Source of the DNA: Nitrospirota bacterium
Lineage (GTDB): Bacteria; JACPQY01
Reading direction: 5' to 3'
Assembly (NCBI GenBank): GCA_016190245.1
Contig: JACPQY010000064.1
Location: 1-16,617, forward strand
Length of the DNA stretch: 16,617 bases
Of the stretch, positions 1-13,379 are shown piece after piece; position 1 is the first letter of the stretch, and the number at the start of each line of letters is the position of its first letter. Below the pieces are notes generated by a model, which did not search any database, was not told the origin of the DNA, and saw only the letters and a program-made list of their open reading frames with translations. Made by a program: the position numbers and the translations under genes.

Positions 1-616
1 ACGTGTAGACCCCACCCATGAAAGCACCCGCGTTGCCGATTTCCAAGTCCGTCGTCGGAGTGAATTGCCCGTCGCCCGTGTCTGCAAAAAGGTGCACGAC
101 GGCGATGTCGGAATCGGCGCCGTTCACGCGCGTGACTTTCACGCTGCTCAAGACCTGGTCGTTCACCGTGTTGTTGTTGATGCCCCACAAGACCAGCACC
201 GGGACATGAGCCTTGCCCCTCGGTTGCGACTGCGCGGAGAGCAGTTGGCGTATCCACACCACCGCCTGCATCACCTCGCCGGATACAGTGAACGCGATCG
301 TCGCCTGATCTGTCGCGGGTCCGGAATTGCCCAGAGCCCTCGCCACGAGGGCCTGAATGTAGAAATCATAGTCGCTGCCCGAGGCTGCCCCGGTCGGGAC
401 GACCCAAGACGTCCGATACTGTCCAGCCGCCGCATTGAGGGTCGACCACCCTGCTGAGGCCTGGACGACGCCTCCCTTCCGGACAGAGACGGTGGGAAGG
501 GTGGAGAATCCGGTCACGGGAGAACCGTCGGAGAAAGTGACCTGGAAATCGGCGAATACAGATTCCCCGGGACTGCCGTCGAAGGGGGGCACGGTGTTGA
601 CAAAGGTGAGGGTGGT
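1..616 (-). repeat. Second copy of the 1161-bp-period in-gene tandem repeat
   Basis: Aligns without any indel to 1162-1777 at a constant offset of 1161 bases (387 codons). It encodes a B module followed by the start of an A module. Similarity stops sharply at about 616/617 and is cut by the window edge on the other side. Confidence 0.85.
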
Positions 617-2335
617 ATCCACCGTGAAACTGTTGGAGGTGACACCGGTGGGCGGACCGGCATTGCCGCCAGCCGATCCGGAGGATGCCGTAACCAGGAG
701 ATCGTAGTTGCCGGACGTCGTCTGGAAGTCGGGCACCACCCACGTGGCGCGATAGGTGCCGAGCTCAGGGTTGACGGGAGACCAGGCGGCCGATGCGATT
801 TCGGCGCCGCCCTCTTTCACTCTTACCGCAGGCGACACGCCAAAACTCGTGACGACGGTCCCATCGGAGTATACAGCCCTGTAGTCCGCGGATACCGTTT
901 CACGGGCTTTCGCAGGGCCAGGTTGGGCCGTCATGGTCAGGGTGATGGTGGGATCGATCAGATGCCCGTTGTCAACAGCAGTTCCAAGGGAGCTCAGAGG
1001 AAAGGCGCCGGAACCCGTGTACGGGCTTTGGGTAAGATCGTCTGCGACGTCGATCTTGGCACTTAGTCGGGCACCGGCTGTGGCCGTCCCCGAGATGTCG
1101 CAGGCAAGATATAGCTGTCGTGCGCCGCCGTTCTTCGCAACAGCGAGGTTCAGGCCGCTGAACGTGTAAACCCCGGCCAGGAAAGGCCCCGCGTTGCCTA
1201 TTTCCAAGTCTGTCGTCGGCGTGAACTGCCCGTCACCCGTGTCGAGAAAAAGGTGCACCGCGGCCACGTCGGAATCGGCTCCGTTCACGCGCGTGACTTT
1301 CACGCTGCTCAAAATCTGGTCGTTCAGCGTATTGTTGTTTGTGGCCGACAGGACCAGCTCGGGAGCCAGAAGTTTGCCCCTCGGTTGCGACTGTGCGGAG
1401 AGGAGTTGGCGAATCCAAACCACCGCCTGTACTGCCTCGGCGGATACGGTGAACGTGTTGGTGGCCTGGTTTGTCGCGGGTCCGGAATTACCCAGAGCAA
1501 TGCCGGCAAGAGCCTGTATGAAGAAATCATAGTCGCTCCCCGAGGGTGCCCCAGGCGGTACGACCCAGGTCGCCCGATACTGTCCAGTCGCCGCATTGAG
1601 GGTCGACCATCCTGCGGAGGCCTGGACGACGCCTCCCTTCCGGACGGAGACGGTGGGAAGGGTGGAGAATCCGGTCACGGGAGAGCCGTCGGAGAATGTG
1701 ACCTGGAAGTCGGCGTTTATGGAAGCCCCGGCACTGCCGTCTGCGGGCGGCACGGTGTTGACAAAGGTGAGGGTGGTGTTCACCAGGTGGCCGCTGGAAC
1801 CGGTTGTCCCGAGGGAACTGACAGGGAAGGTACCCTGAACGATTCCCGTCTCGCCCACATCCGTCTTGGCATTCAGGGAAGCGCTCATCCGGGCGCCGTT
1901 GGTGGCGGTGGTTGAAACGTCCACTGTAACCCAGAAATACTTGGACGTATTCTGCGTGAGCGGCACGTTCAGGCTCGAGAATGTTTTCTTGCCGCTTACG
2001 AACGGGCCGGGCGTGCCGATTTGTGTGTCGGCACCCGGTTCAAAGATTCCGTCCGCATTAGCATCCACCCAGAGATGGACACTGGAGATGTTTGCATTGG
2101 AGCCATTGACACGCGTGATGATCAGGCTGTTCAAGGTGTGAGAGTTTCCGGCCTGGGTGGCGATGAGCCCCAGTATCTTGACCCCGGCCTTTCCACGCGG
2201 GACGGTCTGGGATGTCACCGCGCTGGCGGACCACGTCGTGTTGTCCGCCGCGGCGGCCATGGAATCCCCCGGCTGCGCCGCCAGCCAGGTCAGTCCCAGC
2301 GCGAGGCAGATGAGGCGCGTGAGCACGGCCCGCAT
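1..2335 (-). CDS. Secreted repeat protein with Ig-like modules, 3' end beyond the window
   Basis: The frame is open without a stop from the ATG at 2335 to the left edge (778 codons). The start lies 4 bases after the stop of the GGDEF-EAL gene and has a GAGGG about 8 bases upstream. Residues 1-27 form a Sec signal peptide (Arg, then a Leu/Ala-rich core). Two module types follow. Type A (about 33-186, 301-461, 689 onward) has an acidic DxxxDG-like loop (DANADGIFEPGAD in the first, DTGDGQF in the others) that could bind calcium. Type B (about 187-300, 462-573, 574-688) is an Ig-like beta-sandwich with FSDG, VSVRKGG and YRATWVVP-like strands. The order is A-B-A-B-B-A. Residues 187-391 and 574-778 are about 83% identical by hand alignment. 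There is no catalytic signature. It is probably an extracellular adhesin or structural protein; this is inferred from architecture, and I do not recognise a named family. The anchor or secretion signal must lie beyond the edge. Confidence 0.85.
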   Translation of the reverse strand, partial: MRAVLTRLICLALGLTWLAAQPGDSMAAAADNTTWSASAVTSQTVPRGKAGVKILGLIATQAGNSHTLNSLIITRVNGSNANISSVHLWVDANADGIFEPGADTQIGTPGPFVSGKKTFSSLNVPLTQNTSKYFWVTVDVSTTATNGARMSASLNAKTDVGETGIVQGTFPVSSLGTTGSSGHLVNTTLTFVNTVPPADGSAGASINADFQVTFSDGSPVTGFSTLPTVSVRKGGVVQASAGWSTLNAATGQYRATWVVPPGAPSGSDYDFFIQALAGIALGNSGPATNQATNTFTVSAEAVQAVVWIRQLLSAQSQPRGKLLAPELVLSATNNNTLNDQILSSVKVTRVNGADSDVAAVHLFLDTGDGQFTPTTDLEIGNAGPFLAGVYTFSGLNLAVAKNGGARQLYLACDISGTATAGARLSAKIDVADDLTQSPYTGSGAFPLSSLGTAVDNGHLIDPTITLTMTAQPGPAKARETVSADYRAVYSDGTVVTSFGVSPAVRVKEGGAEIASAAWSPVNPELGTYRATWVVPDFQTTSGNYDLLVTASSGSAGGNAGPPTGVTSNSFTVDTTLTFVNTVPPFDGSPGESVFADFQVTFSDGSPVTGFSTLPTVSVRKGGVVQASAGWSTLNAAAGQYRTSWVVPTGAASGSDYDFYIQALVARALGNSGPATDQATIAFTVSGEVMQAVVWIRQLLSAQSQPRGKAHVPVLVLWGINNNTVNDQVLSSVKVTRVNGADSDIAVVHLFADTGDGQFTPTTDLEIGNAGAFMGGVYT
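1162..1777 (-). repeat. First copy of the 1161-bp-period in-gene tandem repeat
   Basis: Partner of 1-616. The encoded residues 187-391 match 574-778 at about 170 of 205 positions by hand count, and the DNA keeps long identical runs. The repeat unit is one B, one A and one divergent B module. Confidence 0.85.
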
Positions 2336-2339
2336 CGAG

Positions 2340-4496
2340 CTAGCCCTCGGGCACCTCTTGTTTGGATTCGAAGTACCGGGTGATGCCGTTCGCATCCATC
2401 GGCTTGCTGAAAAGGTAGCCCTGTCCGAAGCGGCAACCGAGGCATTTCAGGCGATGAAGCTGGTCCGCTGTTTCGATGCCCTCGGCGACCACATCCATGC
2501 AAAGGCTGGTCGCGAGGACGCAGATCGTCTTAATGACCTCGGAGCTCTCCTCGTCGATACCGAGCCGTTTCACGAAGGTGCGGTCCACTTTCAGGGCATT
2601 GAAGTTGAATCGATGGAGATAGCTCAGGGAGGAGTAGCCGGTCCCGAAGTCGTCAATCACCAACTGGATGCCGCGATCCTTCAATTGCAGAAGGAGGGCG
2701 GTCACGGCCAGCGTGTCTCCCGTGGTGATACTCTCGCTTATTTCGAGGCGGAGACTCCGGGGGTCCATCTGAGTCTCCCCGAGGATTTCGTCGATCCGGC
2801 GGACGAGATCAATCTTGGCGATCCGCTTCCCAGAGAGTTTGACATTGAGGGCAAACGACGGGGGGAGTCTGAATTGCAGTTGCCACTGCCGCATCTGACG
2901 GCAGGCGTGGCTCAGCATCCAGAAGCTGATGGGGGTGATCAGCCCTGTTTCTTCCGCGATGGGAAGGAATTCTCCAGGCCCAACTGCCTTGCCGCTGGGG
3001 TGGTTCCACCGCAAGAGGCACTCGAGGCCGACGTCCTTCCCCGAAACCAGGTCCACAATGGTCTGGTAATCCACCGTCAGCTGGTTCAGTTCGAGGGCCC
3101 TGCGAAGCTCGACCTCGAGGCTGAGTCTCGTGTGGGCCCAAGCCCTCATTTCGAGGTCGAAGAGCTCATGCCGGGCACCGCCGTCCGCCTTCGCGAGGTA
3201 CATGGCCGTATCCGCATCCCGAAGCATCTCGTGAGCGCCGCCATAACCGGTCGTGCTGATCGCGACGCCGATGGAGGCCGACGTCTGCACTTCACGAGCG
3301 TCCAGATGGAAAGGGAGGGCGATCTCCTGCTGAATGCGCTGCACGATGCGAAGAGCACCCACCGCATCCTTAACGTCGTCCAACAGAACGGCGAATTCGT
3401 CACCGCCAAGTCGCGTGACGGCATCCCCCGGCCGGAGGCAGGCCTCCAATCGGCGGGCCACCTCCACCAGAAGCAGATCCCCAACCGGGTGCCCCAGGCT
3501 GTCATTGATGAACTTGAAACGGTCGAGGTCCATGAACAGCACGGCCAAGGCGTATTGTGGATCGCGCTTGGTTCGAAGCAAGAGTCGCTCGGCGCGGTCC
3601 AGGAACAACGCGCGATGGGGAAGACCCGTGAGGGTGTCGTGCGTGCGGCGCCTGCTGACGTCGCTCACCGATCCGGCGATGAGTCGAGGGGAACCATCAC
3701 TGCCCAGCACGCCCAGACCCCGGTTCAGAACCCAGCGGTAGGTCCCATCCCGATGCTTCATGCGGTATTCCTCTTCGAAGTTGAGCTGTGTTCCCCTACT
3801 GAGGGCGTCCACCGAGGCCCTCACCGAGAAGAGGTCATTCGGATGGACCCGGCTGAACCATTCCTCCGGGCTGTTGCCGATCTGGGACTCGTCGTAGCCG
3901 ACCATAGCTTTCCATCGAGGAGAAAACTGGATCGTGTTTGTCGGGAGATCCCATTCCCATAGACCGTCGTCGGTTGCCTGAGCGGCAACGGCGAAGGCCG
4001 CACGTTCACCAACGTCGGGCCTCTGGACGATGGCCGTGAACACGCGCCGGCTTCCAAGCAGGCTCTCCGTCAATCGGACCACAACAGGGAAAGTCTCCCC
4101 ATTGAATTTCATCGCATTCAGAGCGATTCTTCGTCCCAGCAGGTTCCCCGTTGTCCGCCCAAACTCCACCGGATCGACCGGGATTCTGAAACCGTTTTCT
4201 CCAACAAGGAATGTCCCCAGAGGCCGGCCAAGGAAGGTGTGAGCGGGCAGGGCCCACATCCTTTGGATTTCCAGATTGAGCATCAGAACGACTCCGGTGG
4301 CGTCCACGGTGAGGATGCCCTCTCCGAGCCCGTCCAGGAGTGCCCGCATGCCCAGGGCTGAATCGAAGACATCCGGGGTCCGTGCGTGAAAGGTGGGGCC
4401 GGGCATGGCGGTGTTCAGTCCGGGTGAATGGACAGGGTCTGCCAGGGCCGGCGCTTCCTCAGTGGCTTGGCCTGCCTGGGGGGCGCTACCCATCAT
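2340..4496 (-). CDS. PAS-PAS-GGDEF-EAL cyclic-di-GMP turnover protein
   Basis: A 718-residue cytoplasmic protein with no membrane segment. Two PAS-like sensor domains lie at about 45-160 and 170-285; the second has WEWDLPTN and RDGTYRWV features of the PAS_3 type. A GGDEF domain follows at about 288-445, with GGDEF intact at 364-368 and an RxxD inhibitory site (R355-D358) exactly five residues before it. The EAL domain (about 455-710) has ECLLRW at 492-497 instead of EALLRW. Its metal and catalytic positions look kept: N551, E585, DDFGTG 615-620, K636/D638, AEGIET 671-676. The family makes (GGDEF) and hydrolyses (EAL) c-di-GMP. Both domains look competent, so the net direction cannot be read from sequence. 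The start ATG overlaps the stop of the upstream response regulator (ATGA), and the stop is 4 bases before the secreted repeat protein, implying one operon with coupled translation. Confidence 0.95.
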   Translation of the reverse strand: MMGSAPQAGQATEEAPALADPVHSPGLNTAMPGPTFHARTPDVFDSALGMRALLDGLGEGILTVDATGVVLMLNLEIQRMWALPAHTFLGRPLGTFLVGENGFRIPVDPVEFGRTTGNLLGRRIALNAMKFNGETFPVVVRLTESLLGSRRVFTAIVQRPDVGERAAFAVAAQATDDGLWEWDLPTNTIQFSPRWKAMVGYDESQIGNSPEEWFSRVHPNDLFSVRASVDALSRGTQLNFEEEYRMKHRDGTYRWVLNRGLGVLGSDGSPRLIAGSVSDVSRRRTHDTLTGLPHRALFLDRAERLLLRTKRDPQYALAVLFMDLDRFKFINDSLGHPVGDLLLVEVARRLEACLRPGDAVTRLGGDEFAVLLDDVKDAVGALRIVQRIQQEIALPFHLDAREVQTSASIGVAISTTGYGGAHEMLRDADTAMYLAKADGGARHELFDLEMRAWAHTRLSLEVELRRALELNQLTVDYQTIVDLVSGKDVGLECLLRWNHPSGKAVGPGEFLPIAEETGLITPISFWMLSHACRQMRQWQLQFRLPPSFALNVKLSGKRIAKIDLVRRIDEILGETQMDPRSLRLEISESITTGDTLAVTALLLQLKDRGIQLVIDDFGTGYSSLSYLHRFNFNALKVDRTFVKRLGIDEESSEVIKTICVLATSLCMDVVAEGIETADQLHRLKCLGCRFGQGYLFSKPMDANGITRYFESKQEVPEG

Positions 4497-5554
4497 GGCG
4501 CCGCGTGCCCCGCAAGCAGGGTGGGTCCTTGGGTTGTGCTGTGGGGTGATTCGTCATTCAGATCCGCAGCGTCCAATACGCCCTTGAATTCATCCAGGAG
4601 GCGTGCGTCTCTCCATCCCTTGTTGGCTTCGGAAGTCAGGATCTCCAGGGCATCCTCATGCGAAAGCGCCTTCCGGTAGACACGACCGCTTGTCAATGCA
4701 TCGTAGATGTCTGCGATGGTGACGATACGGGCCTCTATGGAAATGGCGCCGTCGGACAAGCCTTGCGGGTAGCCCGAGCCGTCCAGTCTCTCGTGGTGTG
4801 CGAGAACGACCGGAATCGTTCCCTGGAATGATTTCATCGGACGGATGAGATCCCGGCCCATCAAGGGATGTTGCCGGATCTCCTCAAGTTCGTCGGGGGT
4901 CAGGGGTCCGGGCTTCAGGAGGACGCTGTCGCGAATGGAAATCTTTCCAAGGTCGTGCAGAAGGGCGCCTCTGCGGATGCTTCTCTGCGCCGCCTCCGCA
5001 AGCCCGACCCGTATCGCAAGGCGGTTGGCCAGTTCAGATACCCGTTCGCTGTGCCTCGCCGTGTACGCATCGCGCGCATCGATGCTTCGGGCCAGTGAAA
5101 TGATGACTTGCTCGGCTTGGTCGAGGTCGTCGGTGAAGAATTTCAGCTGGATGAGGGATCGGACACGGGCGATCAGCTCCACGGAGGAAAAAGGCTTGGA
5201 GAGGAAATCCGTGGCCCCGGATTCGATCGCTCGAATCTTGTCCTTGCGCGTCCCGGCTCCGGTGAGCATGATAATGGGGAGGAGGCGTGTGCGTGGGTCC
5301 GCCCGAAGTTCAAGGAGGACATCGTTTCCCGAGCGATCCGGCAGATGAAGGTCCAGCAAGATGAGATCGGGAGGTGAGGTGCGCACTCGGCGCAACGCGC
5401 CCTCAACGCTCCCCTCCTCCTCGATCGCGAATCCGAGGGGTCTGAGTAGTTCGCAGACGGCGGTTCGGATCTCGGTGTCATCGTCTACCACCAGCAACCT
5501 TCCGGCTGGGTTTCTCGGAGAGGCAGGTCCATCCGCTGATGGAACCGGATTCAT
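4493..5554 (-). CDS. Response regulator with HD-GYP c-di-GMP phosphodiesterase domain
   Basis: 353 residues of RpfG-like layout. The receiver domain (about 19-135) has acidic residues DDD 24-26, phospho-acceptor D68 in LLDLHLPD, T98 and K120 (SKPFSS). A short helical linker is followed by an HD-GYP domain (about 145-330) with HD at 200-201, HHE at 253-255 and DGSGYP ending at 263. The family hydrolyses c-di-GMP on phosphorylation by a partner histidine kinase, and no kinase is in the window. The last ~25 residues look disordered. The start ATG has GGGGGAG 5 bases upstream. It is the first gene of the unit with the GGDEF-EAL protein and the secreted repeat protein, so it probably senses the signal and tunes the same nucleotide pool. 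The family is certain; the input signal is unknown. Confidence 0.95.
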   Translation of the reverse strand: MNPVPSADGPASPRNPAGRLLVVDDDTEIRTAVCELLRPLGFAIEEEGSVEGALRRVRTSPPDLILLDLHLPDRSGNDVLLELRADPRTRLLPIIMLTGAGTRKDKIRAIESGATDFLSKPFSSVELIARVRSLIQLKFFTDDLDQAEQVIISLARSIDARDAYTARHSERVSELANRLAIRVGLAEAAQRSIRRGALLHDLGKISIRDSVLLKPGPLTPDELEEIRQHPLMGRDLIRPMKSFQGTIPVVLAHHERLDGSGYPQGLSDGAISIEARIVTIADIYDALTSGRVYRKALSHEDALEILTSEANKGWRDARLLDEFKGVLDAADLNDESPHSTTQGPTLLAGHAAP

Positions 5555-5640: not shown

Positions 5641-5665
5641 ATTGGTGACTACCGCGGTCACCAAT
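5641..5665. promoter_or_regulatory. 9-7-9 inverted repeat, candidate operator upstream of the c-di-GMP operon
   Basis: ATTGGTGAC (5641-5649) and GTCACCAAT (5657-5665) form perfect 9-base arms around a 7-base spacer. A third copy of the core TTGGTGA lies at 5627-5633, 15 bases from the one in the left arm. The site is about 87 bases before the response-regulator start. No T-run follows it, so a protein-binding dyad is likelier than a terminator. The regulator is unknown. Confidence 0.5.
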
Positions 5666-5954: not shown

Positions 5955-5978
5955 AAAAAGACGCGCTACGCGCGCGTC
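5955..5978 (-). terminator. Rho-independent terminator of the phosphoesterase gene
   Basis: Read on the minus strand, GACGCGC (5978-5972), a 5-base loop and GCGCGTC (5966-5960) make a perfect 7-bp GC-rich stem, directly followed by five Ts (5959-5955). It lies 60 bases after the phosphoesterase stop codon. Confidence 0.85.
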
Positions 5979-7690: not shown

Positions 7691-8440
7691 ATGGCATCCG
7701 TAACGGTATCCGTCCAGGCTCCGGGCTACGGAATCACTCAGCGGAAAGACCGCTGGTGGGTGGAACCCCTCGTCCAAGGCACCCTGTTCCTGATTCTGGC
7801 CGGCTACTCCACGTGGGCCGCTTTCCAGGGGGAGCACTACGAATTCGGCCCCTACCTCTCCCCCATGTACTCGCCGCTCCTCCAGCCCTCGTGGTGGCCC
7901 CTCTCGCCCGCCATTCTCATCCTCTGGGTGCCGATCGGCTTCCGCGCGACCTGCTACTACTATCGAAAGATGTACTACCGATCCTTCTTCCTCGATCCGC
8001 CTGCCTGCACGGTGGAAGAGCCGCGTAACGCCTACCGGGGCGAGTCGGCGTTCCCCTTCATTCTCCAGAACATGCACCGCTACCTGCTCTACCTGGGCTT
8101 CATCCCGCTCGCGACCATGTGGTACGACGTCTACCTCGGCACGAAATTCGAGGACGGTTTCGGGATCGGCGTCGGCACGCTCGTGCTTTTCGTGAACGTC
8201 GCGGCGATCAGCTTGTATGTCTTCTCGTGCCACGCCTTCCGCCACGTGATCGGTGGGAACGTGGACTGCTTCGCGAAGGCAACGTGCGGCAAACAGCGCC
8301 ATGCCGTCTGGAAGGCGTCGAGCCGGTCCAACGAACACCACATGATGTTCGCTTGGATCAGTTTCTTCGCGGTCGTGGCCGCCGACCTCTACGTACGCCT
8401 CGGCTCGATGGGCTACCTCACGGACATCAGGATCATCTAG
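7691..8440 (+). CDS. sdhC: Succinate dehydrogenase/fumarate reductase membrane anchor, fused five-helix type
   Basis: 249 residues with about five membrane spans (near 25-44, 69-91, 122-145, 155-182, 216-236). It is the single-chain anchor class known from actinobacterial Sdh1-type enzymes rather than separate short SdhC and SdhD. It holds the SdhA/SdhB head on the membrane and passes electrons to or from quinone. Candidate cofactor ligands are H129 and a cluster at the end of helix 4: C180, H181, H185, C193, C199, H204, then HH 216-217. Family members have conserved segments resembling TCGKQRHAVWKASSRSNEHH. No ribosome-binding site precedes the ATG, so translation may be leaderless. First gene of sdhCAB; an unusual 163-base structured spacer separates it from sdhA. 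The enzyme direction (succinate oxidation or fumarate reduction) is not decided by sequence. Confidence 0.9.
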   Translation: MASVTVSVQAPGYGITQRKDRWWVEPLVQGTLFLILAGYSTWAAFQGEHYEFGPYLSPMYSPLLQPSWWPLSPAILILWVPIGFRATCYYYRKMYYRSFFLDPPACTVEEPRNAYRGESAFPFILQNMHRYLLYLGFIPLATMWYDVYLGTKFEDGFGIGVGTLVLFVNVAAISLYVFSCHAFRHVIGGNVDCFAKATCGKQRHAVWKASSRSNEHHMMFAWISFFAVVAADLYVRLGSMGYLTDIRII

Positions 8441-8490
8441 TACCATGTTGACTAATTCTTGGAACGGATCGGTGCCTCCAACATGGTACT
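8439..8490 (+). repeat. Inverted repeat at the sdhC stop codon
   Basis: AGTACCATGTTG (8439-8450) pairs perfectly with CAACATGGTACT (8479-8490) around a 28-base loop. The left arm overlaps the last two bases of the sdhC stop codon. There is no T-run. Confidence 0.75.
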
Positions 8491-8562
8491 TTCGGAACGA
8501 TGTTTGCTTCCGCAAACATCGTTCCGATGGTCCCGCGTCGGTGACCATCTGCTCCAAGAATT
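8454..8562. repeat. Two inverted copies of a ~52-base element between sdhC and sdhA
   Basis: Positions 8454-8507 and the reverse complement of 8512-8562 share their ends: AATTCTTGGA (10 bases, outer) and CGGAACGATGTTTGC (15 bases, inner), with a diverged middle. The inner arms form a perfect 15-bp hairpin with a TTCC loop (8493-8526). The right copy contains a further ATGGTC/GACCAT pair (8527-8532, 8543-8548). This looks like a small inserted palindromic element. As RNA it would be a strong stem able to pause ribosomes or polymerase, or to protect one side of the mRNA. Confidence 0.75.
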
Positions 8563-8603
8563 CCTCAATGCGGGACTAGGACGCAGCGAACGACGCCGGC
8601 AGC

Positions 8604-10409
8604 ATGGAAAACTACGAAACCCATCGCCACGACGTGCTCGTGATCGGCGCCGGCGGCGCCGGCCTGCGGGCCGCCATCGAGGCGAAATCCCAGGGCGCGA
8701 GCGTCGGACTCGTCTGCAAGTCGCTCCTCGGCAAGGCCCACACCGTCATGGCGGAGGGCGGGATCGCCGCGGCCATGGCGAATATCGATCCCCAGGACGA
8801 CTGGCGAACCCACTGCGCCGACACGCTGCGTGGCGGCGTCTACGTGAACAACTGGCGTATGGCCCAACTCCACGCGCAGGAAGCGCCCGACCGCGTGCGG
8901 GAACTGGAACAATGGGGCGCGCTGTTCGACCGAACGGACGACGGCCGGATCCTCCAGCGGGCCTTCGGCGGCCATAAGTACCGGCGGCTCGTGCACGTCG
9001 GTGACCGCACCGGCCTGGAGCTGATCCGCACTGTGCAGGACAGGGCCGTCCAACTCGGCGTGGACGTCTACATGGAATGCACCGTCACCCACCTCTTCAA
9101 GGAGGACGGTCGCATCGCAGGCGCCCTCGCCTACTGGCGCGAAAGCGGCCGGTTCGTTCTCTTCCCGGCCAAAGCCATCGTGATCGCCACCGGCGGCGCC
9201 GGCAAGTCCTACAAGATCACCTCTAACTCCTGGGAGTACTCGGGCAACGGGCAGGCCATAGCCTTCGAGATCGGCGCGGAGCTCATGGATATGGAGTTTG
9301 TCCAGTTCCATCCCACGGGCATGGTCTGGCCGCCCGGCGTTCGGGGCCTGCTCGTCACCGAGAGCGTGCGCGGAGACGGCGGCCTCTTGAAGAACTCGAA
9401 GGGCGAGCGATTCATGTTCAAGCACACCCCCGAACGCTACAAGGGACAGATCGCGGACACGGAGGCCGAGGCCGAGAAATGGCTCACCGAGATTCGCGAA
9501 GGCCGCCCCATCACGGCCCGCAAACCTCCGGAGCTCTTGCCGAGGGACATCGTCGCCCGCGCGATCTACAACGAAGTGAAGGAAGGCCGAGGCAGCGAGC
9601 ACGACGGCGTCTATCTGGACATTTCCCACATGCCGGCCGAATACGTGAAGCGGAAACTCCCCAGCATGTACATGCAATTCAAGGAACTCGCCGACGTGGA
9701 CATCACGGCGCAGCCCATGGAGATCGGCCCCACGATGCACTACATGATGGGGGGTATCCGCGTGGATGGCGACACACAGAGCACGAATGTTCCCGGTCTC
9801 TACGCGGCGGGCGAGGCCGCGGCCGGCCTGCACGGGGCAAACCGCCTGGGCGGAAACTCGCTTTCAGACTTGATCGTCTTCGGACGCCGTGCCGGGCTCT
9901 ACGCCGCCGAGTACGCGCGGGGCGCCAAAGAAGGGAAGATCGCCGATGCCTCCGTGGATGAGGCCCAAAAGAAACTCCTCGCGCCTTTCGATCGGAAGAA
10001 AGGTCCCACCCCCTACGAGGTCCACCGCGAACTTCAGGACATCATGACGGGCCACGTCGGCATTTTCCGGAACGAGATCGACCTCCAGACCGGAATCCGG
10101 AAACTTCAGGATCTCCGCGAGAAGGCGAAGACCGGTTCGGTGGACGGCGGCCGGCAATACAACCCGGGGTGGCACCTCGCCCGGGACCTTGTCACCATGA
10201 TCACCGTCTCCGAAGCCATCGCCCGAAGCGCCCTGCTCCGCAAGGAGAGCCGGGGCGGGCACGCGCGGACGGACTATCCCAAGTTGGAGGATGCGTTTGC
10301 GAAGACAAATTTCGTGGCCGTCCGCGATGGCGAGACGGTCAAGGTCGAAGGGCGGCCGCTCCCCGAGTGGCCCGAGGAGATCAAGAAGCTGATGGAGGAG
10401 AAGAAGTAG
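8604..10409 (+). CDS. sdhA: Succinate dehydrogenase/fumarate reductase flavoprotein subunit
   Basis: 601 residues, normal for the family. The Rossmann FAD motif GAGGAGLRAA lies at 15-24. H46 in KAHTVMAEGG is the expected site of covalent FAD attachment. Catalytic-region motifs are present: QFHPTGM with H236, TESVRGDGG 252-260, RD at 314-315, HYMMGG from H379, and HGANRLGGNSLSD near 410-422. The C-terminal domain has the usual HARTDYP segment. It interconverts succinate and fumarate on the cytoplasmic side and passes electrons to the iron-sulfur subunit. The ATG has only a weak, distant purine run upstream (AGGAC about 22 bases away), so expression may depend on coupling or on the structured spacer before it. 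It overlaps the next gene by one base (TAGTG). Confidence 0.97.
   Translation: MENYETHRHDVLVIGAGGAGLRAAIEAKSQGASVGLVCKSLLGKAHTVMAEGGIAAAMANIDPQDDWRTHCADTLRGGVYVNNWRMAQLHAQEAPDRVRELEQWGALFDRTDDGRILQRAFGGHKYRRLVHVGDRTGLELIRTVQDRAVQLGVDVYMECTVTHLFKEDGRIAGALAYWRESGRFVLFPAKAIVIATGGAGKSYKITSNSWEYSGNGQAIAFEIGAELMDMEFVQFHPTGMVWPPGVRGLLVTESVRGDGGLLKNSKGERFMFKHTPERYKGQIADTEAEAEKWLTEIREGRPITARKPPELLPRDIVARAIYNEVKEGRGSEHDGVYLDISHMPAEYVKRKLPSMYMQFKELADVDITAQPMEIGPTMHYMMGGIRVDGDTQSTNVPGLYAAGEAAAGLHGANRLGGNSLSDLIVFGRRAGLYAAEYARGAKEGKIADASVDEAQKKLLAPFDRKKGPTPYEVHRELQDIMTGHVGIFRNEIDLQTGIRKLQDLREKAKTGSVDGGRQYNPGWHLARDLVTMITVSEAIARSALLRKESRGGHARTDYPKLEDAFAKTNFVAVRDGETVKVEGRPLPEWPEEIKKLMEEKK
10394..10400 (+). 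promoter_or_regulatory. Ribosome-binding site of sdhB inside the end of sdhA
   Basis: GGAGGAG, 8 bases before the GTG at 10409. It fixes the sdhB start, which an open frame reaching back to 10169 leaves ambiguous. Confidence 0.8.
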
Positions 10410-11656: not shown

Positions 11657-12844
11657 CTATTTTGCCCAATGTTCGGCCGGCATCGAAAGAAAAGTCTCGA
11701 CCGCTATTCCGTCGCCACCCACCAGGAGTGGCCGGGACTTTGGGAAGACCGTGCGAAATGCGTCGAGGCCCGGCTGCGATTCACGGGCTCGCCCGCTCTT
11801 GACCTCGATGGCGGTCACATGGCCGCGGTACCGGATCACGAAATCCACCTCGCGGTTCCGGTCCCGCCAGTAGAAAAGCTCACAGTCTCCGGCAAAGGCG
11901 GCGGAGGCGAGGTGCGCCCCGACGGCCGACTCGACCAGCCGCCCGCGGAAGGGTCGATCCGCCCGCGCCTCCTCGGGCGTCTTCCCCGATTGGGCCGTGA
12001 TGAGGGCCGTATTGAGCACTTGAAGCTTCGGACTCGATCCGCGCCGGCGCACGGCCGAGCCGCAATACTTCTGCAACCCCGTGACCATGCCCGCCGCCGC
12101 GAGCAGGTCGAGGTAGTGGGCCAGGGTCGTGGTGTTCCCCGCGTCATGGAGCTGGCCGAGGAGCTTCTGGTAGGAGACGATCTGTCCTGAGTAGCGACAT
12201 GCGAGATCGAACAAGCGGCGCAGGAGCGCGGGTTTGTCCACGCGGCTGAGGAGGAGAACATCCCGAGAAATAGTGGTCTCGATGAGCGAATCCTTGATGT
12301 AACGGGCCCACCGATCCGGCTCGTTGGAGAGCGGGGCGGCGCCGGGGTACCCGCCGAAGTAGAGGTAGCGTTCCATGTCGAATCCGAACGCCTTCTTCAT
12401 CTCACGGAGGGACCAGTGTGGCAGGTGGATCATCTCGAACCGACCCGCCAAGCTCTCCGTGAGACCCTGCTGAAACACCAGCGGCGCCGAACCGAGCAGC
12501 ACCACCTTGAGTGTGCGCCGGGCACGGGTGTCCTCGTCCCACAGCCGTTTCACGGCCTCGGACCAGCCGGAGATGTTGTGGATTTCATCCAGCACCAGCA
12601 GCGCCGGGCGGTTCTCGGCTTCGAGGCGCGCTGCTTCCCACTGCTCGGCAATCCAATGGCTGCCGCGTAAGGTCGGCTCGTCCGCGCTTGCGAAGCGGGC
12701 CGGAAGCCTGCTCCTCTCAACGGCTTGGCGGACAAGAGTGGTCTTGCCGACCTGACGCGGTCCGGCGATCACTGGGATGAACCGCCGGGGCTCTTTCAAG
12801 CGGGTGCGCAGCAATGCTTCGAAAGGTCTCGTGTACGGCTCCAT
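11657..12844 (-). CDS. AAA ATPase with DUF4143 C-terminal domain
   Basis: 395 residues, typical for the AAA_14 + DUF4143 family. The N-terminal ATPase has Walker A GPRQVGKTT at 28-36, Walker B LLVLDE at 82-87 and a sensor-like LLGSA near 116-120. A winged-helix-like middle (about 200-260) follows. The C-terminal part carries a PD-(D/E)xK-style signature: E305, EVDFVI with D334, and IEVKSG with E347 and K349. These ATPases are widespread, often horizontally moved, and lack an agreed function; roles in nucleic-acid handling or defence are guesses. The start ATG has no clear ribosome-binding site. It is transcribed divergently from the PIN-domain gene across a 130-base AT-rich spacer with repeated TTACTCA motifs, and it converges on sdhB. 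No terminator is seen after the stop. Confidence 0.9.
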   Translation of the reverse strand: MEPYTRPFEALLRTRLKEPRRFIPVIAGPRQVGKTTLVRQAVERSRLPARFASADEPTLRGSHWIAEQWEAARLEAENRPALLVLDEIHNISGWSEAVKRLWDEDTRARRTLKVVLLGSAPLVFQQGLTESLAGRFEMIHLPHWSLREMKKAFGFDMERYLYFGGYPGAAPLSNEPDRWARYIKDSLIETTISRDVLLLSRVDKPALLRRLFDLACRYSGQIVSYQKLLGQLHDAGNTTTLAHYLDLLAAAGMVTGLQKYCGSAVRRRGSSPKLQVLNTALITAQSGKTPEEARADRPFRGRLVESAVGAHLASAAFAGDCELFYWRDRNREVDFVIRYRGHVTAIEVKSGRARESQPGLDAFRTVFPKSRPLLVGGDGIAVETFLSMPAEHWAK

Positions 12845-12851
12845 TTACGAA

Positions 12852-12880
12852 TTACTCAATATCATGAGTCATTTTACTCA
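12852..12880. promoter_or_regulatory. TTACTCA/TGAGT repeats in the divergent spacer, candidate operator
   Basis: TTACTCA occurs at 12852-12858 and 12874-12880, 22 bases (about two helical turns) apart. TGAGT at 12865-12869 between them gives inverted pairs in both directions. The stretch is much more AT-rich than the surrounding DNA and sits just before the ATPase start. It could bind a repressor shared by both divergent genes. Confidence 0.4.
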
Positions 12881-12974
12881 GATCCGTGTGCAAATCAACT
12901 TGAACCCCCGCTTGCGAGCGGACATCCCTCAGGAGTTCCACTGGCATCGGAAAAATCAACAAGGATATCTTGAA

Positions 12975-13379
12975 GTGAGCCGAGTCCTCCTGGACACATC
13001 GGCCTACTCCGCTTTCATGCTCGGAATGCCCGCCGCCAAGTCTTGCCTCCAAGCAGCGGAAGCGATATTCCTCAACCCCGTCGTACTGGGTGAACTGCTG
13101 GCCGGTTTTCGGAAGGGAATGCACTGCGCGACGAATGAGAAGGAACTCAGCACCTTACTCTCTTCCCCGCGGGTCGGAGTTCTGGACATGACGGAGGACA
13201 CAGCCCATCGCTACGCCTTCATCCACGACTCCTTGAGAAAAGCTGGACCCCCAATTCCAACACACGATCTCTGGATCACCGCCACGGCCATGCAGCATGG
13301 CCTAGTCGTCGTCACCTCCGACGATCACTTCCTGAAAATCCAGCAGATCGCAACGGAACTCGTCGATCTCCGAGCCTGA
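12975..13379 (+). CDS. VapC-like PIN-domain ribonuclease toxin
   Basis: 134 residues from the GTG at 12975, which has AAGGA 9 bases upstream. An in-frame ATG at 12864 would add 37 residues that do not look like part of a PIN fold. PIN acidic residues are all present: D7 in LLDTSAYSAF, E40 in VVLGELLAGF, D98 in PTHDLWITATA, and D116/D117 in VTSDDHFL. The family cleaves RNA with Mg2+ and is normally blocked by a small antitoxin encoded just upstream. No such gene is visible: the other frames in the spacer give no antitoxin-like sequence. It is either an orphan toxin, a case where the antitoxin has decayed or is elsewhere, or a housekeeping-type PIN protein. The stop is 4 bases from the convergent fumC stop, so the 3' ends are tightly packed. 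Confidence 0.85.
   Translation: MSRVLLDTSAYSAFMLGMPAAKSCLQAAEAIFLNPVVLGELLAGFRKGMHCATNEKELSTLLSSPRVGVLDMTEDTAHRYAFIHDSLRKAGPPIPTHDLWITATAMQHGLVVVTSDDHFLKIQQIATELVDLRA

Follow-up and report, generated by a model that had tools for sequence, protein, structure and literature searches.

It is poorly understood how sensors in the inner membrane of Gram-negative cells come to register events at the outer surface. The closest described case is that of Porphyromonas gingivalis. There PorA, a CTD protein, arrives at the surface without help from the translocation machinery and binds PorV; it also acts on a two-component system, PorXY, and PorA-PorXY regulates the genes of the type IX secretion system (T9SS) (PMC7712824). 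The authors of that work concluded that some factor has to connect PorA at the surface with PorY in the inner membrane, and stated that this link is missing (PMC7712824). PorV itself shuttles cargo for T9SS, and its barrel and CTD cargo frequently occur as a pair (PMC12618676).

The window considered here, a stretch of 16,617 nucleotides from a Nitrospirota bacterium (genome G000), is the entire contig C51 and holds the front of a five-gene operon. We consider it probable that this operon encodes a trans-envelope sensory module, in which a surface protein acts through a PorV/PorQ-like barrel with a TPR domain (PorV-TPR) on a Cache-HAMP transducer, here feeding cyclic di-GMP (c-di-GMP). This reading is based on the gene content, the conserved translational coupling, the intact motifs, and a cross-phylum pairing of PorV-TPR and Cache-HAMP genes that occurs with three output types. 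Base 1 of the window is a contig end and cuts the gene for a large repeat protein; the first 92 nt (1..92, no strand) match exactly the last 92 bases of contig C60, which bears the remaining part of the repeat gene, followed by genes for a 598-aa PorV/PorQ-like barrel with TPR and a 778-aa HAMP-PAS-HisKA-HATPase kinase. The assembly probably broke at this point because of 300-bp internal copies in the repeat gene, which are 83% identical (1-300 versus 1162-1461; the gene consists of window 2-2335 and, on C60, L106 5808-9422). The joined order, complete in a genome of another genus of the same phylum (G001), is an HD-GYP response regulator, a GGDEF-EAL protein, a repeat protein of about 1,950 aa, the PorV/PorQ-like barrel with its C-terminal TPR, and the HAMP-PAS histidine kinase. 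The earlier note had suggested a self-contained c-di-GMP module serving one effector; this is not correct, since the unit comprises five genes and includes the barrel and a membrane histidine kinase. These observations come from two genomes of the phylum, G000 (85% complete) and G001 (97%), with genes called by a simple ORF caller.

The first operon gene (4493..5554, minus strand) encodes the 353-aa HD-GYP response regulator, with Response_reg (1.7e-24) and HD_5 (3.9e-36) domains; its ortholog in G001 is 85% identical. It carries both motifs that mark HD-GYP phosphodiesterases (HDxGK and HHExxDGxGYP), as HDLGK and HHERLDGSGYP, as well as the receiver Asp, which is the phospho-acceptor, and Lys. 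A search of the genome contigs with the HD-GYP protein returned distant relatives only. The second gene (2340..4496, minus strand) encodes a 718-aa PAS-PAS-GGDEF-EAL protein (GGDEF 4.5e-43, EAL 4.1e-69) in which no membrane domain was matched. Its GGDEF domain retains the I-site and RLGGDEF, and the EAL domain retains ECLLRW, DDFGTG, AEGIE and GQGY, including the metal-binding motifs, so that it is predicted to be bifunctional. The earlier assignment of all three c-di-GMP domain types to two adjacent genes thus holds, with the catalytic motifs intact. The HisKA-HATPase kinase and the receiver-domain regulator lie within one operon, which makes them a putative phosphotransfer pair, and the membrane histidine kinase is a plausible partner of the HD-GYP regulator.

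The junctions between these genes are tight and conserved. The HD-GYP and GGDEF-EAL genes share an ATGA stop/start overlap (4493..4496, minus strand), identical in G001, and the repeat gene starts after a 4-nt gap (2336..2339, minus strand; the TAG-to-ATG stretch spans 2342-2333) that is kept in G001. All four junctions match between the two genomes: ATGA, TAG-N4-ATG, a stop codon directly followed by ATG, and a 17-nt overlap. Operon DNA is 78-81% identical, and blastn of the G000 flanks against a 19-kb G001 stretch gave no match on either side, the similarity ending with the operon. Because order and junctions are kept in another genus while the flanks show no DNA similarity, joint production of the c-di-GMP enzymes and the repeat protein, as the earlier note had proposed, is supported; conservation of the gene order, its suggested check, was found in the single further genome compared from the phylum. 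Neither the 4493-4496 nor the 2336-2339 junction shows a promoter- or terminator-like site that would separate the repeat gene from the enzymes.

This tight coupling to an exported protein is also what would be expected if control ran from the inside outward, with the repeat protein an adhesin whose production or display is governed by the c-di-GMP enzymes, a kinase that senses a periplasmic ligand of no relation to it, and an operon that serves merely for co-expression. PilZ proteins, possible receptors for such control, are encoded elsewhere in the genomes (10 in G000, 8 in G001), so the earlier statement that the window lacks a PilZ or LapD-like receptor stands for the window and not for the genome as regards PilZ. 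A further HD-GYP response regulator in G001 (contig C41, L105 9702-10778, minus strand) is joined by the same TAG-N4-ATG gap to a large RCC1-repeat, lipoprotein-like exported protein. We nevertheless regard inside-out control as unlikely. A LapD-type receptor and LapG are absent; the LapD reading of the GGDEF-EAL protein was rejected, as it scores 115.7 bits against a LapD cut-off of 1020 and has intact catalytic motifs. A paralogous operon in G001 (contig C4) encodes an Ig/FlgD/CFI protein, a PorV-TPR barrel (37% identical) and an sCache_3-HAMP protein with a class III nucleotide cyclase output, and has no c-di-GMP genes upstream. Across phyla, the constant partner of PorV-TPR is a sensor rather than a c-di-GMP enzyme. 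Signal flow from the surface to c-di-GMP is, we infer, more likely than flow from c-di-GMP to an adhesin. A third HD-GYP regulator in G001 (C19, L111 7657-8811, plus strand) is flanked by genes for an exported protein of 1,146 aa and for a LytR_C/outer-membrane-barrel protein.

Upstream of the operon, a terminator-like hairpin with a T-run (5960..5978, minus strand) separates it from a phosphoesterase gene, and the sole minus-strand promoter-like match (5582-5553) precedes the first gene. A perfect 9-bp inverted repeat (ATTGGTGAC-N7-GTCACCAAT; 5641..5665, no strand), located downstream of a TTGACA at 5704-5699, is a possible operator of the operon. A conserved operator was rejected, the repeat being absent from G001 and from all other fetched loci apart from L003, itself this very stretch of the window contig. 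A strong ribosome-binding site precedes an ORF of 18 codons (5607-5554), which shares an ATGA with the HD-GYP start; in G001 this ORF is an in-frame extension, and a conserved mini-ORF was rejected. Farther along the window, nested inverted repeats (8437-8579) lie between the gene for a 249-aa membrane protein (7691-8440), which adjoins succinate dehydrogenase/fumarate reductase-like genes, and a flavoprotein gene at 8604. Divergent AAA_14/DUF4143 ATPase and PIN/VapC-like genes (11657-13379) are situated between the succinate dehydrogenase-like genes and fumarase.

The window holds the 5' part (778 aa; 1..2335, minus strand) of the exported Ig-like repeat protein. Its start was placed at ATG 2335, where a signal-peptide-like stretch begins; an alternative in-frame ATG at 2395 would make the protein 20 residues longer and overlap the EAL gene. 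In this part, beta domains of about 155 and 112 aa alternate, a fold assigned with moderate confidence. A fold search with one domain pair gave weak matches to sialidase and integrin beta-sandwich domains (model pLDDT 66, TM about 0.4) and was not used as evidence. The G001 ortholog has 1,948 aa. The C-terminal end, encoded on C60, contains Big_1, FlgD_ig and CFI-box-CTERM (NF041770; 73.2 and 69.3 bits, cut-off 40). Toward the end of the protein, where a type A sorting domain would be expected, FlgD_ig matches at 3.6e-08 and Por_Secre_tail only at 0.08, and the chain runs on into the CFI-box. Only three CFI-box proteins occur in G000 and G001, each encoded directly upstream of one of the three PorV-TPR genes, which provides a genomic handle on these proteins; a full-text search of the open-access literature found no paper on them. 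The CFI-box as a general PorV partner was rejected, many CFI-box genes in other phyla having no PorV nearby.

The translocon of the type IX system appears to be missing from both genomes of this phylum. SprA, with PorU a hallmark of that system, was found in neither G000 nor G001, and the same search matched 22 of 22 other PorV-bearing genomes tested. For PorU, no match exceeded the cut-off in either genome; G001 gave matches to the C25 peptidase only, and G000 one such match at E 9e-4. The module as found here therefore cannot be filed under T9SS. For the same reason the repeat protein could be periplasmic, and its placement at the surface in our model is conditional.

The barrel of the G001 ortholog scores 86.4 bits against the PorV/PorQ family profile NF033709 (cut-off 90), the match lying in its N-terminal part, and the barrels of this phylum are joined by sequence to PorV-TPR proteins of other phyla. 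Beyond the barrel lies an extension of about 260 residues with TPR, which should face the periplasm. The N-terminus of the kinase matches only HAMP in Pfam; a local Cache-HAMP profile also matches it, although this profile was partly trained on the kinase. Cache sensors commonly bind small molecules. PorV belongs among FadL-like barrels, and it is conceivable that PorV-TPR admits a small molecule to the Cache domain while the Ig protein captures the substrate. Related PorV-TPR proteins show weak Toluene_X/FadL matches, which would agree with such uptake, but the barrel of the window genome shows none, and the conserved TPR and FlgD-Ig partner would be left unexplained. We consider ligand uptake very unlikely.

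The pairing of PorV-TPR with a transducer extends well beyond this phylum. The barrel was searched against 386 genomes. At three loci (L154, L160 and L162), a Cache-HAMP kinase comes after the genes for an Ig/FlgD protein and PorV-TPR, and at three others (L231, L224 and L230) PorV-TPR is followed by a kinase, a cyclase or a SpoIIE phosphatase. In a forward survey, long PorV genes (at least 530 aa) were compared with short ones (below 450 aa), a transducer being counted within two same-strand genes downstream. A Cache-HAMP transducer followed 17 of 28 long PorV genes, 11 of the 28 having none, and 1 of 41 short ones (Fisher p=5e-8), the single short case being a chemoreceptor; the genomes are not independent, and one family (f117) supplies several positives. 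Among loci fetched only after the hypothesis had been formed, the counts were 8/13 for long and 1/20 for short PorV (p=7e-4). The linked cases span ten GTDB families. PorV-like genes in general were rejected as kinase partners because of the 1/41 count for short PorV.

A reverse search gave a consistent result. Eight sensor regions from the discovery loci were made into a profile, which was run against 15 genomes. The top match in held-out genomes such as G138, G238, G366 and G239 was the PorV-linked transducer, with G216 as an exception. Among matches not examined before, 8 of 9 readable strong ones (E<1e-40) lay beside PorV, versus 1 of 10 weaker ones (p=1e-3). PorV and sensor distances are correlated over 21 pairs (rho 0.68; 0.62 between families), a correlation to which shared ancestry contributes.

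The outputs attached to this pair vary. In L243, an independent lineage from another phylum, PorV-TPR and a kinase are followed by an RR-GAF-HD-GYP protein, and the L154 and L160 modules include an RR-GGDEF; in others the output is a cyclase, or SpoIIE together with STAS and anti-sigma-type kinases. C-di-GMP is therefore one output among several, and comparison of gene neighborhoods suggests that the core conserved across phyla is a surface protein, PorV-TPR and a Cache-HAMP transducer, one input module wired to three signalling currencies. In L230 (9632-11934, genome G336), L287 and L288, PorV-TPR is followed by sCache_3-HAMP-SpoIIE, STAS and an anti-sigma-type HATPase, a partner-switch output on the same input. 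In L253 (3304-6081) and L248 (2922-5681), HATPase_c_2, HAMP, SpoIIE and a helix-turn-helix are fused in one chain directly after PorV-TPR, with sCache_3 matched in L253.

The shuttle role of PorV allows a further explanation, in which PorV-TPR serves as a shuttle or an assembly factor, with a transducer that tracks cargo load or envelope stress so that secretion can be adjusted, in the way put forward for PorXY, and that does not respond to external cues. The frequent pairing of CTD cargo with its barrel (PMC12618676) and the control of T9SS genes by PorA-PorXY (PMC7712824) are in line with it, as is the FlgD-Ig protein encoded directly upstream in 14 of the 17 linked cases. The lack of SprA, and of PorU above cut-off, in G000 and G001 argues against secretion feedback, and the outputs are not secretion genes but include c-di-GMP, cyclic nucleotide and SpoIIE/STAS switches. 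We regard this explanation as rather unlikely.

For the trans-envelope sensory reading, we propose that the giant Ig-like protein, with its FlgD-Ig/CFI-box C-terminus, would be held at the outer membrane by the PorV/PorQ-like beta-barrel. The periplasmic TPR domain of the barrel may contact the periplasmic sensor of the kinase and report the state of the outer-membrane assembly. The HAMP-PAS kinase would then phosphorylate the HD-GYP response regulator, which together with the bifunctional GGDEF-EAL protein would set c-di-GMP. More broadly, it is a serious possibility, although somewhat short of an even chance, that PorV-TPR and sCache_3-HAMP form a separate class of outer-membrane receptor over many phyla, in which the barrel anchors an Ig-like antenna and the periplasmic TPR arm signals to transducers in the inner membrane whose outputs can be swapped (c-di-GMP through a kinase, a cyclase, or a SpoIIE phosphatase), with the CFI-box as anchoring tail in this phylum, where the system would work without the type IX translocon. 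The barrel-plus-sensor core, which recurs with interchangeable outputs in about ten bacterial families, seems to represent a route of cell-surface sensing not described before; a full-text search of open-access papers under related terms turned up no account of such a module. The missing type of link now has a concrete and testable candidate in a barrel that carries a periplasmic TPR arm and is encoded beside a sensor.

Compared with known systems, the operon resembles the LapD/LapG/LapA switch in that c-di-GMP genes are tied to a giant exported repeat protein. Here, however, there is no LapD or LapG, the catalytic sites of the GGDEF-EAL protein are intact and it has no matched membrane sensor, the membrane sensor being the histidine kinase. 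Beside known HD-GYP response regulators and bifunctional GGDEF-EAL proteins, the two enzymes of the window are ordinary, catalytically intact members, and only their operon context is unusual. The N-terminal barrel resembles the PorV/PorQ shuttles of T9SS, and the cargo likewise has a FlgD-Ig domain, whereas the barrel here adds the TPR extension, the cargo ends in a CFI-box past FlgD-Ig, and the genome has neither SprA nor PorU above cut-off. With PorA-PorV-PorXY of P. gingivalis (PMC7712824), the likeness would lie in a CTD-type exported protein that binds PorV and acts upstream of a two-component system. In contrast to that system, SprA was not found here, the regulator combines a receiver with HD-GYP where PorX bears a PglZ domain, the barrel has a TPR domain, and barrel, cargo, kinase and regulator are encoded together in one operon.
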